A DNA stretch of 64,000 bases from Oerskovia jenensis (GTDB lineage: Bacteria; Actinomycetota; Actinomycetes; Actinomycetales; Cellulomonadaceae), in contig NZ_JAFBBO010000001.1 of assembly GCF_016907235.1 (NCBI RefSeq), positions 1,674,001 to 1,738,000 of the forward strand, given 5' to 3'. Below are positions 8,940 through 11,989 of this stretch, one piece after another. Under the pieces are notes generated by a model. That model searched no databases. It was not told the origin of the DNA and saw nothing but the letters and a program-made list of their open reading frames with translations. A program made the position numbers and the translations under genes. Position 1 is the stretch's first letter, and each line of letters begins with the position of its first letter.

Positions 8940-9434
8940 TCAGCGACGGGTCATGGTCGAGGCGTACCCGCCCCCGCCCGGGTAGACCCACTCCCCGACG
9001 ACCGAGTCACCGTCGGCGTCGAACAGGCCCTCGAAGTAGGCAGGCCCACCCTTGGCCCCTGCCCAGATCGTCAGGCGGTCACCGGCGAGCTCGTACACGT
9101 AGTCCAGCGTGTTGCCCAGGGAGTCGTAGAAGCGGGAGACGACGTCGTCGCCCACGGGTTCGCCGAACGGGTGGAGGTTGCCGATGACCTCGAGCCCGGC
9201 GACCTCCTGGCCGAACTGCACGAGCCGGACCCGCTGGAGGAGGAAGTACCCGCCCTCCATCCACTCGTAGGTGACCTCGCCCTCCGCACCGCCGGTCACC
9301 CGCCAGGTGCCGACGAGTCGATCGAGGGCACGCAGGCCCGCGCTGGGCGGAGCCTGCTCCTCGAGACCGTAGCCGTCGACGTCGACGGCCGCCGCCGCCT
9401 CGTCCGTGCGGGCCTCGTGCGGGGTGCTGTTCAT
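8940..9434 (-). CDS. DUF1579-like protein, likely ECF42 target
   Basis: 164 residues with no signal peptide or membrane segment. After a loose N-terminus (about 30 residues) comes LDRLVGTWRVTGGAEGEVTYEWMEGGYFLLQRV and later a VVSRFYDSLG block; this is the beta-barrel pattern of DUF1579 proteins, whose function is unknown. ATG 9434 has AAGGAG upstream. The gene is divergent from the DUF998-DGPF-ECF42 operon, and 50 bases before its start lies TGTCGA-17-CGAGGT, a promoter-like sequence matching the one in front of the sigma operon. I therefore infer that it belongs to the same regulon. The family call rests on pattern recognition only. Confidence 0.75.
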   Translation of the reverse strand: MNSTPHEARTDEAAAAVDVDGYGLEEQAPPSAGLRALDRLVGTWRVTGGAEGEVTYEWMEGGYFLLQRVRLVQFGQEVAGLEVIGNLHPFGEPVGDDVVSRFYDSLGNTLDYVYELAGDRLTIWAGAKGGPAYFEGLFDADGDSVVGEWVYPGGGGYASTMTRR

Positions 9435-9484: not shown

Positions 9485-9513
9485 ACCTCGTCGCGACGGG
9501 CGATCCCTCGACA
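9485..9513 (-). promoter_or_regulatory. ECF42-type promoter for the DUF1579-like gene
   Basis: Read on the minus strand: TGTCGA (9513-9508), 17-base spacer, CGAGGT (9490-9485). Identical hexamers and spacing occur on the plus strand at 9548-9576. TGTCGA in the -35 and CGA in the -10 are what I recall as the published ECF42 promoter consensus. Predicted transcription start is near 9478, about 45 bases before the ATG. Confidence 0.7.
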
Positions 9514-9522
9514 TCCCCTCGG

Positions 9523-9538
9523 TGTGACGCGCATCACA
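9523..9538. promoter_or_regulatory. CRP/GlxR-like site
   Basis: TGTGA-CGCGCA-TCACA, an exact match to the cyclic-AMP receptor protein half-sites with the standard 6-base spacer. Its centre (9530.5) is exactly the midpoint between the two outward-facing ECF42-type promoters. Each promoter is about 50 bases from it, so one dimer could influence both. Confidence 0.65.
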
Positions 9539-9547
9539 TCCCCGAGG

Positions 9548-9576
9548 TGTCGAGATCCCCTCGGTGGCCCCGAGGT
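9548..9576 (+). promoter_or_regulatory. ECF42-type promoter for the DUF998-DGPF-sigma operon
   Basis: TGTCGA (9548-9553), 17-base spacer, CGAGGT (9571-9576), the mirror image of the minus-strand promoter at 9485-9513. Predicted start near 9583, leaving about 29 bases before ATG 9612 with GAGGAG in between. Control by the sigma factor encoded at the end of this operon would make it autoregulated. Confidence 0.72.
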
Positions 9577-9611: not shown

Positions 9612-10286
9612 ATGACCAGCCAGACCCGGCCGACCACGCCACCCACCGGATCCACCCCGCCGTCCGACCGCCGCCCGCGCAGTCGCTCCCTGCTGACCGC
9701 GGCGACCCTCGCCGGTCCGTTCTTCGTCGTCTCCGCCGGCGTGCAGTCCGTCGCCCGCGAGGGGTTCGACCTGCGCGTCCACCCCCTCAGCCAGCTCTCC
9801 ACGGGAGACTTCGGCTGGGTCCAGATCCTCACCTTCGCCCTGACCGGCCTCGGGCTCCTCGCGCTGGCGGTGACCCACCGACGGATCATCAGGGAAGGAG
9901 TCGGGCGACGCGCCGTCCCCGTCCTGCTGGGGATCGCCGGGATCGGCTTCGTGCTCGCGGGCGTCTTCGTCATGGACCCCGAGAACGGCTTCCCCGTCGG
10001 CACACCAGACGGACCGGCCGCCTCGGTGTCGTGGCACGGCGTCGCTCACTCGGTGGCCGCCGCCATCGCCTTCACCGCGCTCGCCGTGGCAGCCGTCGTC
10101 CTGGCTGTCCGAGCAGTGCGGGCACGCCGGGTCCTGGCCGCGGTCGGCCACGGCGTCGTCGGCCTCGCCCTGCTCCTGCCCGTGTCGCCCGAGACCGCGA
10201 GCATCCAGGTCGCCGTCAACGGCCTCGTCGCCTTCACCTGGACCACGGTCCTCGCCGTGCGGCTGCGGACCCTCGTCGTCGCCTGA
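9612..10286 (+). CDS. DUF998 integral membrane protein
   Basis: 224 residues with six predicted membrane helices: LLTAATLAGPFFVVSAG near 28-44, then helices near 75-90, 100-120, 145-170, 175-190 and 198-218. A 25-residue Pro/Thr/Arg-rich N-terminus is cytoplasmic. The FDLRVHPLSQLSTGDFGW segment after helix 1 is typical of DUF998 proteins, whose role is unknown. ATG 9612 has GAGGAG six bases upstream. It is the first gene of a three-gene operon with a DGPF protein and an ECF42 sigma factor, behind an ECF42-type promoter. Confidence 0.85.
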   Translation: MTSQTRPTTPPTGSTPPSDRRPRSRSLLTAATLAGPFFVVSAGVQSVAREGFDLRVHPLSQLSTGDFGWVQILTFALTGLGLLALAVTHRRIIREGVGRRAVPVLLGIAGIGFVLAGVFVMDPENGFPVGTPDGPAASVSWHGVAHSVAAAIAFTALAVAAVVLAVRAVRARRVLAAVGHGVVGLALLLPVSPETASIQVAVNGLVAFTWTTVLAVRLRTLVVA

Positions 10287-10332: not shown

Positions 10333-10704
10333 ATGAAGTACCTGTTGCTCGGATACACCCCAGCCGCCGCGTGGGACGCCGGCACCGCCGACACGCCGAC
10401 CGACGAAGCGCTCGCGGCCTTTGCCGCCTACCAGGAGTTCGAGGCGGAGCTGCGACGGACAGGTGAGTTCGTGTCGAGCGAGGGCCTGGGCCACCCGGCG
10501 GTGAGCACGACGGTGCGCCGGACCGACTCCGGTGTCGTCGCGACCGACGGACCCTTCGCCGAGCTCAAGGAGGTCCTCGCGAGCTTCGCGATCATCGACT
10601 GCGCGAGCCACGAGAGGGCCGTCGAGATCGTCAGCCGCATGGTCGAGGTCCTGGGCGAGCCCATGGAGATCCGCCCGATCATGGGCGACGACTTCGCGGC
10701 CTGA
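10333..10704 (+). CDS. DGPF-motif (YCII-like) protein, ECF42 partner
   Basis: 123 residues in the YCII/dimeric alpha-beta barrel fold. It begins with MKYLLLGYTP and carries the name-giving DGPF at residues 72-75 (VVATDGPFAELKEVL). DGPF proteins are known to be encoded next to ECF42 sigma factors and to be their main targets; their biochemical role is unsettled. AAGGAG lies 8 bases before the ATG. The stop is one base before the sigma gene's ATG, so the two are almost certainly translated together. Confidence 0.9.
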   Translation: MKYLLLGYTPAAAWDAGTADTPTDEALAAFAAYQEFEAELRRTGEFVSSEGLGHPAVSTTVRRTDSGVVATDGPFAELKEVLASFAIIDCASHERAVEIVSRMVEVLGEPMEIRPIMGDDFAA

Positions 10705-10705
10705 C

Positions 10706-11989
10706 ATGACGCTCGCACCGGGGTCCGGCTCTCCCCCGGGCCCGAGCATCGAGGACCTGCTGCGCACGGAGGCGCCGCAGGTCCTCGGCGCGCTCGTGCG
10801 TCGGTTCAGCCGGTTCGACGTGGCCGAGGACGCCGTCCAGGAGGCGCTGCTCGTCGCGAGCACCCGGTGGCCCGTCGAGGGCGTGCCGGTCGAGCCGCGG
10901 TCGTGGCTCGTGCGCGTCGCCTACCGCCGGATGATCGACCTCCTGCGCTCAGAGCAGTCGCGCCACCGCCGCGAGCGGACGGTCGGGGAGGCCGTGCTCG
11001 CGGAGCACACGTCGGGCCGCGAGGTGATCGACGACGACGACAGCCTCACTCTGCTGCTCCTGTGCGCCCACCCGTCCCTCAGCCCGACCTCTCAGGTCGC
11101 CCTGACCCTGCGTGCCGTGGGCGGCCTCACGACCGCGGAGATCGCCCATGCCTACGGCGTGACCGAGGCGACCATGGGGACGCGGGTCAGCCGCGCGAAG
11201 CAGCAGCTCCGCCAGGAAGGGACACGATTCGTCCCCACGACCTCGGCCGACCGCGACGCACGCCTCGCGTCGGTGCTGCGGGTGCTGTACCTCGTGTTCA
11301 ACGAGGGCTACACGGCGACCTCGGGGACGCGGCTCGGCCGGGTCGACCTCGCGCGCGAAGCCGTCCGGCTCGCCCGGCTCGCCCGCGCACACAGCCCCCG
11401 CGACCCCGAGGTCGCCGGACTGCTCGCCCTCATGCTCCTCACCGAGGCCCGCCGTGACGCCCGGACCGACGACCAGGACCACCTGGTGCGCCTCGAGGAC
11501 CAGGACCGGTCACGCTGGGACCACGAGATGATCGAGGAGGGCCGCGCGATCATCGACGCCGTCTGGCCGTTGCGCACCGTCGGGCCGTACCAAGTGCAGG
11601 CCGCGATCGCCGCCGTCCACGCGACGGCGGCACGCGAGGCCGACACCGACTGGCCGCAGATCGCCGCGCTCTACCTCTGGCTCGAACGCCTCGCGCCGAC
11701 AGGCCCGGTCCGCCTGGCGCGCGTCGTGGCGGTAGCGCGGGCGTTCGGTCCCCGGCGGGGCCTCGACCTCCTCGATGCGCTCGACCGCGAGCACGGGCTC
11801 GCCACCGACCCTCTCGCGGGCCCGCGCGAGCCCGCGGTGCGTGCACACCTGCTCGACGACCTGGGTCGCCCCGGCGAGGCAGCGGTCGCCTTCCGGTCCG
11901 CAGCGGCTCGTACGCAGAACGCGGTCGAGCAGGAGTACCTGCTCGACCGGGCTCGGACCAGCGCGGCACGCGAGCCCGGCACACGCTGA
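10706..11989 (+). CDS. ECF42-group RNA polymerase sigma factor with C-terminal extension
   Basis: 427 residues, about twice a minimal ECF sigma factor. Region 2 (about 15-80, FSRFDVAEDAVQEALLVAS and WLVRVAYRRMIDLLR) and region 4 (about 110-165, LTTAEIAHAYGVTEATMGTRVSRAKQQLR) are followed by a helical extension of some 260 residues (DARLASVLRVLYLVFNEGYTA to the end), the hallmark of ECF42. No anti-sigma gene is adjacent, as expected for this group, where the extension is thought to control activity. It should direct RNA polymerase to the two TGTCGA-17-CGAGGT promoters upstream. Confidence 0.92.
   Translation: MTLAPGSGSPPGPSIEDLLRTEAPQVLGALVRRFSRFDVAEDAVQEALLVASTRWPVEGVPVEPRSWLVRVAYRRMIDLLRSEQSRHRRERTVGEAVLAEHTSGREVIDDDDSLTLLLLCAHPSLSPTSQVALTLRAVGGLTTAEIAHAYGVTEATMGTRVSRAKQQLRQEGTRFVPTTSADRDARLASVLRVLYLVFNEGYTATSGTRLGRVDLAREAVRLARLARAHSPRDPEVAGLLALMLLTEARRDARTDDQDHLVRLEDQDRSRWDHEMIEEGRAIIDAVWPLRTVGPYQVQAAIAAVHATAAREADTDWPQIAALYLWLERLAPTGPVRLARVVAVARAFGPRRGLDLLDALDREHGLATDPLAGPREPAVRAHLLDDLGRPGEAAVAFRSAAARTQNAVEQEYLLDRARTSAAREPGTR

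Follow-up and report, generated by a model that had tools for sequence, protein, structure and literature searches.

Classic sigma-70 divergent operons place one symmetric CRP dimer between two transcripts, and in E. coli the trg promoter, like aer, is a CRP-activated sigma-28 promoter. CRP near −50, with a dependence on helical phase, is described for the alternative-sigma promoter aer; E. coli CRP is reported to activate a sigma-28 promoter from −49.5 and to fail at −44.5 or −54.5, and in sigma-70 systems CRP near −50 activates weakly (PMC2859248, available to us in part).

ECF42 sigma factors, among them S. venezuelae Sven_0747, Sven_4377 and Sven_7131, P. putida ECF-10 and S. meliloti RpoE10, join an ECF core to a long C-terminal extension. 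They have a DGPF/YCII gene upstream and a TGTCGR-N17-CG(A/T) promoter, which for RpoE10 is given as TGTCGG-N17-CGTC (PMC6180224, partial text). That paper describes anti-sigma genes as missing near ECF42 genes (PMC6180224), and a review says that no partner has been identified for the ECF42 extension (PMC8999054). A protein called RsfG, from Streptomyces tsukubaensis, binds the ECF56 sigma factor SigG1 in two-hybrid and co-purification experiments and is reported to restrain it; its gene lies downstream of, and is co-transcribed with, the gene of this SnoaL_2-extended ECF (PMC7730460, as far as the available portion goes).

We analysed a 64,000-nucleotide stretch of Oerskovia jenensis DNA, called the window below, in which one locus combines features of all these systems. 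It shares with the ECF42s named above the ECF core followed by a C-terminal extension (here recognised by its DUF6596 domain), the upstream DGPF/YCII gene and the TGTCGR-N17-CG(A/T) promoter, but its −10 is of the CGWGGT type where theirs is CGWC, and a divergent RsfG-family gene stands under the same promoter with a shared CRP site. As in SigG1–RsfG, an RsfG-family protein (62-65% identity) is encoded beside an ECF sigma gene; here, however, the gene is divergent and the sigma factor is a DUF6596-type ECF42. The position near −50 recalls aer, although the E. coli sigma-28 cases involve another sigma family and no mirrored pair, and only there has activation been shown. In contrast to the classic divergent CRP operons, both O. 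jenensis promoters are identical ECF promoters at equal distance from the dyad. Each component is already known by itself: divergent promoters with a common CRP site, ECF42 operons, and RsfG. What we did not find in a literature search is their combination, in which a spacing-locked CRP dyad and a divergent RsfG-family gene accompany a clade of ECF42 that has a −10 of its own; the search returned no report linking ECF42 to CRP or RsfG, and an earlier mention cannot be excluded.

Conservation shows back-to-back ECF42 promoters, as recognised by sequence, between a DGPF-ECF42 operon (with or without a leading DUF998 gene) and an RsfG-family gene, with a dyad 9 bp from each −35 in most species surveyed. 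We regard it as likely that this is a bidirectional element through which one ECF42 clade drives a probable anti-sigma gene as well as its own operon, the two sharing a symmetric CRP site. The first-pass annotation of this DNA had already placed one ECF42 on both sides and a cAMP-type regulator between them; the conservation survey, without binding data, supports that interpretation and extends it. The locus puts forward a concrete candidate for the ECF42 partner, the RsfG-family protein, as well as a class of promoters distinguished by the −10. With its natural symmetry and constrained spacing it is also suited to studying how CRP acts on an ECF-type RNA polymerase outside classes I and II. 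Present in many soil actinobacteria, the arrangement suggests a partner not recognised before, together with an uncommon twofold control, for a widespread and poorly understood class of bacterial regulators.

Layout of the element in Oerskovia jenensis

The features of the locus, numbered from the first base of the window, are as follows.

8940..9434, minus strand: RsfG-family protein, 164 aa, probable anti-sigma factor (function inferred), identified with phmmer and Foldseek
9485..9513, minus strand: ECF42-type promoter TGTCGA-N17-CGAGGT facing the RsfG-like gene; predicted start ~9478
9523..9538, no strand: CRP-type dyad TGTGACGCGCATCACA, ~−52.5 from both predicted starts; binding not shown
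9548..9576, plus strand: ECF42-type promoter TGTCGA-N17-CGAGGT facing the DUF998-DGPF-ECF42 operon; predicted start ~9583
9612..10286, plus strand: DUF998 protein (Pfam PF06197, E 9.2e-29)
10333..10704, plus strand: DGPF/YCII-domain protein (Pfam PF03795, E 9.1e-10)
10706..11989, plus strand: ECF42 sigma factor, 427 aa, with a C-terminal DUF6596 extension (Pfam Sigma70_r2, Sigma70_r4_2 and DUF6596)

Direct reading and a pattern search both place TGTCGA-N17-CGAGGT twice, at 9548-9576 on the plus strand and at 9485-9513 on the minus strand. The 34-bp gap between the −35 hexamers consists of 9 bp, the 16-bp dyad TGTGACGCGCATCACA at 9523-9538 and a further 9 bp, and the centre of the dyad and the midpoint of the promoter pair coincide at 9530.5. 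The mirrored promoters and central dyad of the first-pass annotation were thus confirmed to the base. Its reading of the two as ECF42 promoters, with the consensus TGTCGA/CGA, is supported with one change. The −35 hexamer, the spacer length of 17 bp and the start distance match those of S. meliloti RpoE10 promoters, but the fourth base of the −10 is G rather than C. Starts were predicted by counting 35 nt from the first T of TGTCGA, a distance copied from S. meliloti promoter sequences; in two ECF42 promoter sequences printed for that species, the −35 begins 35 nt before the last base, which was taken as the start (PMC6180224, partial text). With starts so predicted, the dyad position of about −52.5 is neither class I (−61.5) nor class II (−41.5).

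The 4,453,691-base O. jenensis genome (one contig) holds only two exact copies of TGTCGA-N17-CGAGGT, both within the element at 9485-9576, and the regulon may accordingly comprise little more than these two units. When two mismatches were allowed, the promoter pattern was not enriched in the 64-kb window (14 observed versus 13.07 expected). Since the loose pattern occurs at chance level, only exact matches and conservation were used as evidence. The dyad pattern TGTGAN6TCACA is found at 15 places in the genome, 9523-9538 included, compared with one for a reversed control pattern. No CRP site was found near 10 (L003-L012) of the 21 genome promoter sites with one mismatch, where the best candidates had 4-6 mismatches.

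Conservation of the promoters and the dyad

We surveyed relatives using the divergent RsfG-like protein as query, so that the CRP site was not presupposed, and took every listed locus. Overlapping sets of 59, 394, 297, 298 and 396 genomes, searched at E thresholds of 1e-3, 1e-25 and 1e-40, gave 128 loci, 63 with a divergent DGPF gene and 65 without a neighbouring DGPF. Allowing at most four mismatches in total, we found a mirrored ECF42 promoter pair in 58 of the 63 divergent loci (no mismatch in 26, one in 18, two to four in 14), and all 116 of their −10 hexamers read CGAGGT or CGTGGT. No such pair was seen in 1,260 first-order resampled regions or in any of the 65 loci without a neighbouring DGPF. 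The −35s are 34 bp apart in 47 pairs and 33 (2), 35 (2), 40 (3), 42 (3) or 44 bp (1) apart in the others.

A CRP dyad with no more than two mismatches lies between the promoters in 52 of the 58 mirrored pairs. Its spacers measure 9/9 in 47, 8/9 in two, and 10/9, 9/10 and 9/19 once each; the 33-, 35- and 44-bp gaps also contain it. The best match to TGTGAN6TCACA is exactly central in 47/47 pairs with a 34-bp gap, at two mismatches or fewer in ten positions (0 in 18, 1 in 18, 2 in 11), a level that shuffled centres reach in ~0.02% of cases. Across these 47 relatives the GTG and CAC triplets are fixed, except for one base in one sequence, and 13 of the 18 spacer positions fall under 0.5 bit. Surveyed sequences are related, and 47 pairs are not 47 independent trials. 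The poor conservation of the spacers nevertheless argues that the fixed positions do not merely reflect recency, and it is mainly conservation in relatives that excludes chance. Retention of both promoters and the central site in relatives, named earlier as a check on the arrangement, is borne out by these counts of 58/63 and 52/58.

The remaining six mirrored pairs, with 40- or 42-bp gaps (L017, L131, L191, L192, L193 and L194), lack a CRP dyad (best match 4-6 mismatches), so CRP is not essential to the arrangement. By eye, these pairs, from families f1, f11, f13 and f19 of the order, carry A/T-rich tracts near each −35, possibly UP elements or the site of another regulator. Five of the 63 loci fall outside the four-mismatch rule: L168, L179, L180 and L201 keep the dyad and have, by eye, one degenerate promoter, and L222 has a different arrangement. 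The divergent pairing of RsfG-like and DGPF genes spans ten families of the survey. Among the 52 CRP-bearing pairs, only L190 (G1125) has a spacer of 19 bp on the RsfG side, an addition of 10 bp or one helical turn.

Within the genus, seven Oerskovia genomes were compared, its own included. The divergent gene is complete in four, a fragment in one and absent from two. All four with a complete gene keep TCGACA-N9-TGTGA-N6-TCACA-N9-TGTCGA together with both −10s, and the 9-bp spacers vary among them, most in G004. A pattern search located the element in O. turbata and O. enterophila as well. In the 48-bp stretch bounded by the two −35s, symmetry holds at 23 of 24 base pairs in O. turbata and at 17 of 24 in O. 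jenensis; a perfect palindrome in O. turbata is ruled out by that single base pair. In G002 (L018), the Oerskovia genome with the gene fragment, residues 76-164 of the divergent protein adjoin residues 315-378 of the sigma factor, and it appears that a deletion joined the ends of the sigma and RsfG-like genes, with loss of the intergenic element.

Pattern searches carried the element into distant genomes. The query TCGACA-N8..12-GTGA-N6-TCAC-N8..12-TGTCGA, run against one genome for each of 84,980 species, matched 48 stretches. Exactly N10/N10 around GTGA-N6-TCAC, equivalent to N9 around the 16-mer, was found in 23; in two more, plainly members of this class, one side deviates by a single base. 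By eye, nearly all of these 25 also have mirrored −10s in their flanks. The other 23 were set aside as probable chance matches, the full architecture being missing when the flanks were read. Sources of the 25 are Nocardia, Actinokineospora, Saccharothrix, Kribbella, Streptosporangium, Nonomuraea, Herbidospora, Streptomyces, Micromonospora, Actinomycetospora and Oerskovia; Streptomyces atroolivaceus, for one, carries the element. In 22 of the 25 a homologue of the divergent protein starts within ~110 bp of the element centre, with DGPF, accompanied or not by DUF998, on the other side; the three without an RsfG-like gene beside the element are L070, where the locus ends, L071, where none was found, and L082, which has a transporter-like ORF instead. 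DUF998 is absent from some relatives, several loci giving no match (for example L050, L053 and L093). A search of 394 genomes with the exact −35 pattern matched in 10, of which 6 have the full mirrored pair.

The RsfG-family protein and its ECF42 clade

The divergent gene had been labelled DUF1579-like, a match that proved marginal. No Pfam or NCBIfam family was found for the 164-aa protein at E 1e-3, and DUF1579 itself gives no Pfam match for the O. jenensis protein, although it matches 16 of 21 aligned proteins (best E 0.0071). The gene is more accurately placed with RsfG. AlphaFold, with 21 homologues, predicts a confident barrel (mean pLDDT 84.7) whose first three Foldseek matches are chains of 7qh3, RsfG (62-65% identity, E down to 9.3e-19), and phmmer aligns the divergent protein with 7qh3 RsfG at E 1.4e-54. 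Weaker Foldseek matches are to nitrobindins, fatty-acid-binding proteins and spirocyclases. The proposal that the gene be added to the ECF42 regulon needs extending: beyond being an extra member, it is a homologue of the RsfG (anti-sigma) family.

Contrary to the printed ECF42 description, then, an RsfG-family gene is divergent from DGPF in 63 surveyed loci, its anti-sigma role being inferred. Homology to RsfG and the unidentified ECF42 partner together make the RsfG-like protein a strong but untested candidate, and on balance we think that it antagonises this ECF42, a sigma/anti-sigma contact that is likewise inferred. SigG1 is unlike ECF42, however, and we did not find the contact surface of RsfG mapped in the portions of the literature available to us, so an anti-sigma role may not extend to this protein.

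An ECF56-like sigma gene with a SnoaL-type end occurs in 44 of the 65 loci without DGPF (domains confirmed by Pfam for one); the neighbour of the O. jenensis RsfG-like gene is ECF42, not ECF56 (SnoaL_2). In a tree of RsfG proteins, 61 of 62 ECF42-linked rows fall into one group of 64 (support 99/97), together with L135, L141 and L188, and the rows labelled ECF56 lie outside it. This tree has few columns and unsettled bootstrap values, and the ECF56 label is a crude one, assigned by promoter motif.

The O. jenensis sigma factor has Sigma70_r2 and Sigma70_r4_2 above the Pfam cut-off and hence an ECF core. ECF42 membership also calls for a TPR-rich C-terminal extension of about 200 residues; in this 427-aa protein Pfam recognises DUF6596 at residues 186-284. 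The DGPF/YCII gene (10333-10704) lies directly upstream, as in other ECF42s. The promoter shows the −35 TGTCGA, the 17-bp spacer and a −10 starting CGA, but not the CGWC −10 of S. meliloti and of most unlinked ECF42 promoters, O. jenensis having CGAG. As the −10 base is not a phylogenetic criterion, we filed the protein as a member of a divergent clade of ECF42, not a typical one.

Comparison of 60 ECF42 loci, two sets of 30 that do not cover all rows, set 8 linked to the divergent gene and 2 of the same clade without the adjacent gene beside 50 unlinked ones. A CRP site with at most two mismatches within 60 bp upstream of the promoter was found in 0 of the 50 unlinked loci, of which 33 have a recognisable promoter, and none of the 50 has a site with at most one mismatch in the up to 1.5 kb examined. 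CRP as a general feature of ECF42 is thereby ruled out. The second ECF42 operon of O. jenensis has TGTCGA-N17-CGTC ~480 bp upstream of its DGPF gene and no CRP site. One of the linked-clade ECF42s without the adjacent gene, L254 (G372), has a one-sided CRP promoter.

The linked promoters also differ in their −10, which is CGWG in 7/7 versus CGWC in 32/34 unlinked promoters, in a comparison that admitted only G or C at the fourth base. Linked ECF42s, that of O. jenensis among them, group together in a 32-row clade supported at 100/100, two organisms being counted twice. The RsfG-like gene is adjacent in 29 of these rows, and the other three comprise a locus cut at its end, a separation of ~1 kb and a rearranged genome. 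Region 2 of the linked ECF42s has Tyr73 and Arg70 each fixed in 40/40 rows (again with two organisms twice), unlike other ECF42s. This parallel divergence of promoter and sigma factor supports the view that the linked ECF42 is the factor that reads these promoters. We have little doubt that the mirrored ECF42 promoters are functional.

A probable CRP site at the centre and the competing readings

Two O. jenensis proteins score above the cNMP-binding cut-off, and only one of them has a CRP-type HTH. This full-length CRP-like protein matches 3d0s and 3i54, which we take to be M. tuberculosis CRP, at E 1e-80, and by eye its gene lies beside an endonuclease III-like gene. The other match is, by eye, a thioredoxin-reductase-like fusion without an HTH. 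The motif of M. tuberculosis CRP is reported to resemble that of E. coli (PMC4117774, partial text). The genome thus has both things expected of a CRP-regulated promoter, a TGTGAN6TCACA dyad and a CRP-like protein. The description of the central site as CRP-like holds as well, given that the consensus over 47 relatives is the CRP palindrome and that the genome encodes one CRP-like HTH protein. In the absence of binding data, we infer that the dyad is bound by CRP and consider this highly probable.

There are no data on transcripts, on binding or on protein interactions; that CRP binds, the sign of its effect and that sigma and anti-sigma factor make contact are all inferred. As we picture it, ECF42 would activate its own operon and the RsfG-like gene, and the RsfG-like protein would bind and restrain this ECF42 as RsfG does SigG1. 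Sigma factor and antagonist would then be made together, giving positive autoregulation with built-in negative feedback. A symmetric cAMP-CRP dimer at ~−52.5 could touch both RNA polymerases alike and would most likely activate both promoters, tying the system to nutrient state. A more far-reaching version is plausible but stays short of probable in our view: a single cAMP-CRP dimer co-activates two back-to-back ECF42 holoenzymes, ECF42 and the group's first known anti-sigma factor appear in a fixed ratio and only at high cAMP, and N9 (~−52.5) serves actinobacterial ECF promoters in general as a position for activation by CRP, reused at RsfG paralogues.

The sign of CRP action could be the opposite. 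As a repressor, cAMP-CRP would cover ~−44 to −61 of both promoters and exclude alpha-CTD, and the element would open when cAMP falls. Weak activation by CRP near −50 of sigma-70 promoters (PMC2859248, partial text) makes repression possible, and by eye the dyad sits where several solo ECF42 promoters and the gap-40/42 pairs carry A/T (UP-like) tracts. Occlusion should tolerate shifts in spacing, yet 47 of 52 dyads are spaced exactly 9/9 and one exception differs by exactly 10 bp; the N9 position also recurs at promoters of RsfG paralogues. Taken together, the rigid spacing, the 10-bp exception and this recurrence speak for contact with polymerase, hence for activation over occlusion. We lean towards activation, the sign being inferred, and hold repression to be rather unlikely. 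A different regulator with the same TGTGA/TCACA half sites could also occupy the dyad, for which there are no binding data, and 8 of the 14 other exact sites in the genome have TGTGAA on at least one strand where this one has TGTGAC/TGTGAT. We find this improbable in view of the CRP palindrome in the consensus of the 47 relatives, with GTG/CAC fixed but for that one base, and of a genome in which only one of two cNMP-binding proteins has a CRP-type HTH.

The divergent gene, for its part, might encode a co-activator or a ligand-binding beta-barrel and be an ordinary member of the regulon with no anti-sigma role. Its weaker barrel matches to nitrobindins, fatty-acid-binding proteins and spirocyclases would suit such a function, and ECF42 has its own regulatory extension, with the DGPF protein as another candidate partner (PMC8999054, accessible part). 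Its 62-65% identity, however, is to RsfG, which reportedly binds an ECF sigma factor and restrains it (PMC7730460, partial text), and the gene accompanies one ECF42 clade almost without exception, standing adjacent in 29 of 32 rows. We doubt that it is a mere regulon member, without dismissing the idea, and retain the anti-sigma reading. Finally, the symmetry could be a functionless by-product of a recent inverted duplication, as the 23 of 24 symmetric base pairs in O. turbata might suggest. That reading is already contradicted by the 17 of 24 in O. jenensis and by the 47 relatives, whose spacers vary around fixed −35s, −10s and dyad, and we consider it scarcely tenable.

CRP dyads were also seen at RsfG paralogues. 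Among 46 RsfG-paralogue loci with a different −35-like motif, CGATTC, the dyad lies 9 bp upstream of that motif in five, as at the ECF42 pair, and at N10 in a sixth (L144), and no CRP dyad was found within 39 bp upstream in the other 40. L209 and L224, which lack CGATTC, have a CRP dyad before the variant hexamers CGATCCC/CGCTCCC. The eight dyad-bearing paralogue loci are L140, L144, L209, L211, L212, L219, L224 and L233. An ECF56-like gene is present in the locus at L140, L144, L211 and L233 and not at L209, L212, L219 or L224; with four of eight, the notion that all CRP-bearing CGATTC-type rsfG loci are ECF56 neighbours was ruled out. Many other RsfG-paralogue loci have A/T tracts or just a half site at the dyad position.

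A few loci depart from the common arrangement. At L282 (G332), the ECF42 promoters of DUF998 and of the RsfG-like gene stand ~1 kb apart; both are still present, and neither has a CRP site. L243, L247 and L250 have RsfG-like genes away from DGPF, each with a solitary ECF42-like promoter, TGTCGA-N18-CGAGGT, that is A-rich upstream and lacks a CRP site. In G372, L283 holds a DGPF/RsfG-like pair with the full CRP-centred element and no ECF42 in the 6.5 kb examined, and L284, elsewhere in that genome, holds an ECF42 and DUF998; there the DGPF match is shortened, the CRP promoter is one-sided and the RsfG-like gene is reduced to a weak remnant. At L117 (G160), two mirrored ECF42-type promoters leave a gap of 41 bp that contains no CRP site; the pair lies beside a different ECF42 (45% identity) and away from G160's own RsfG-like gene. 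At L082 2184-2229 (Actinomycetospora lutea), a CRP-centred mirrored pair with CGAC-type −10s and one 18-bp spacer serves an ECF42 outside the linked clade (53% identity) and an MFS-transporter-like ORF, and looks like an independent case.
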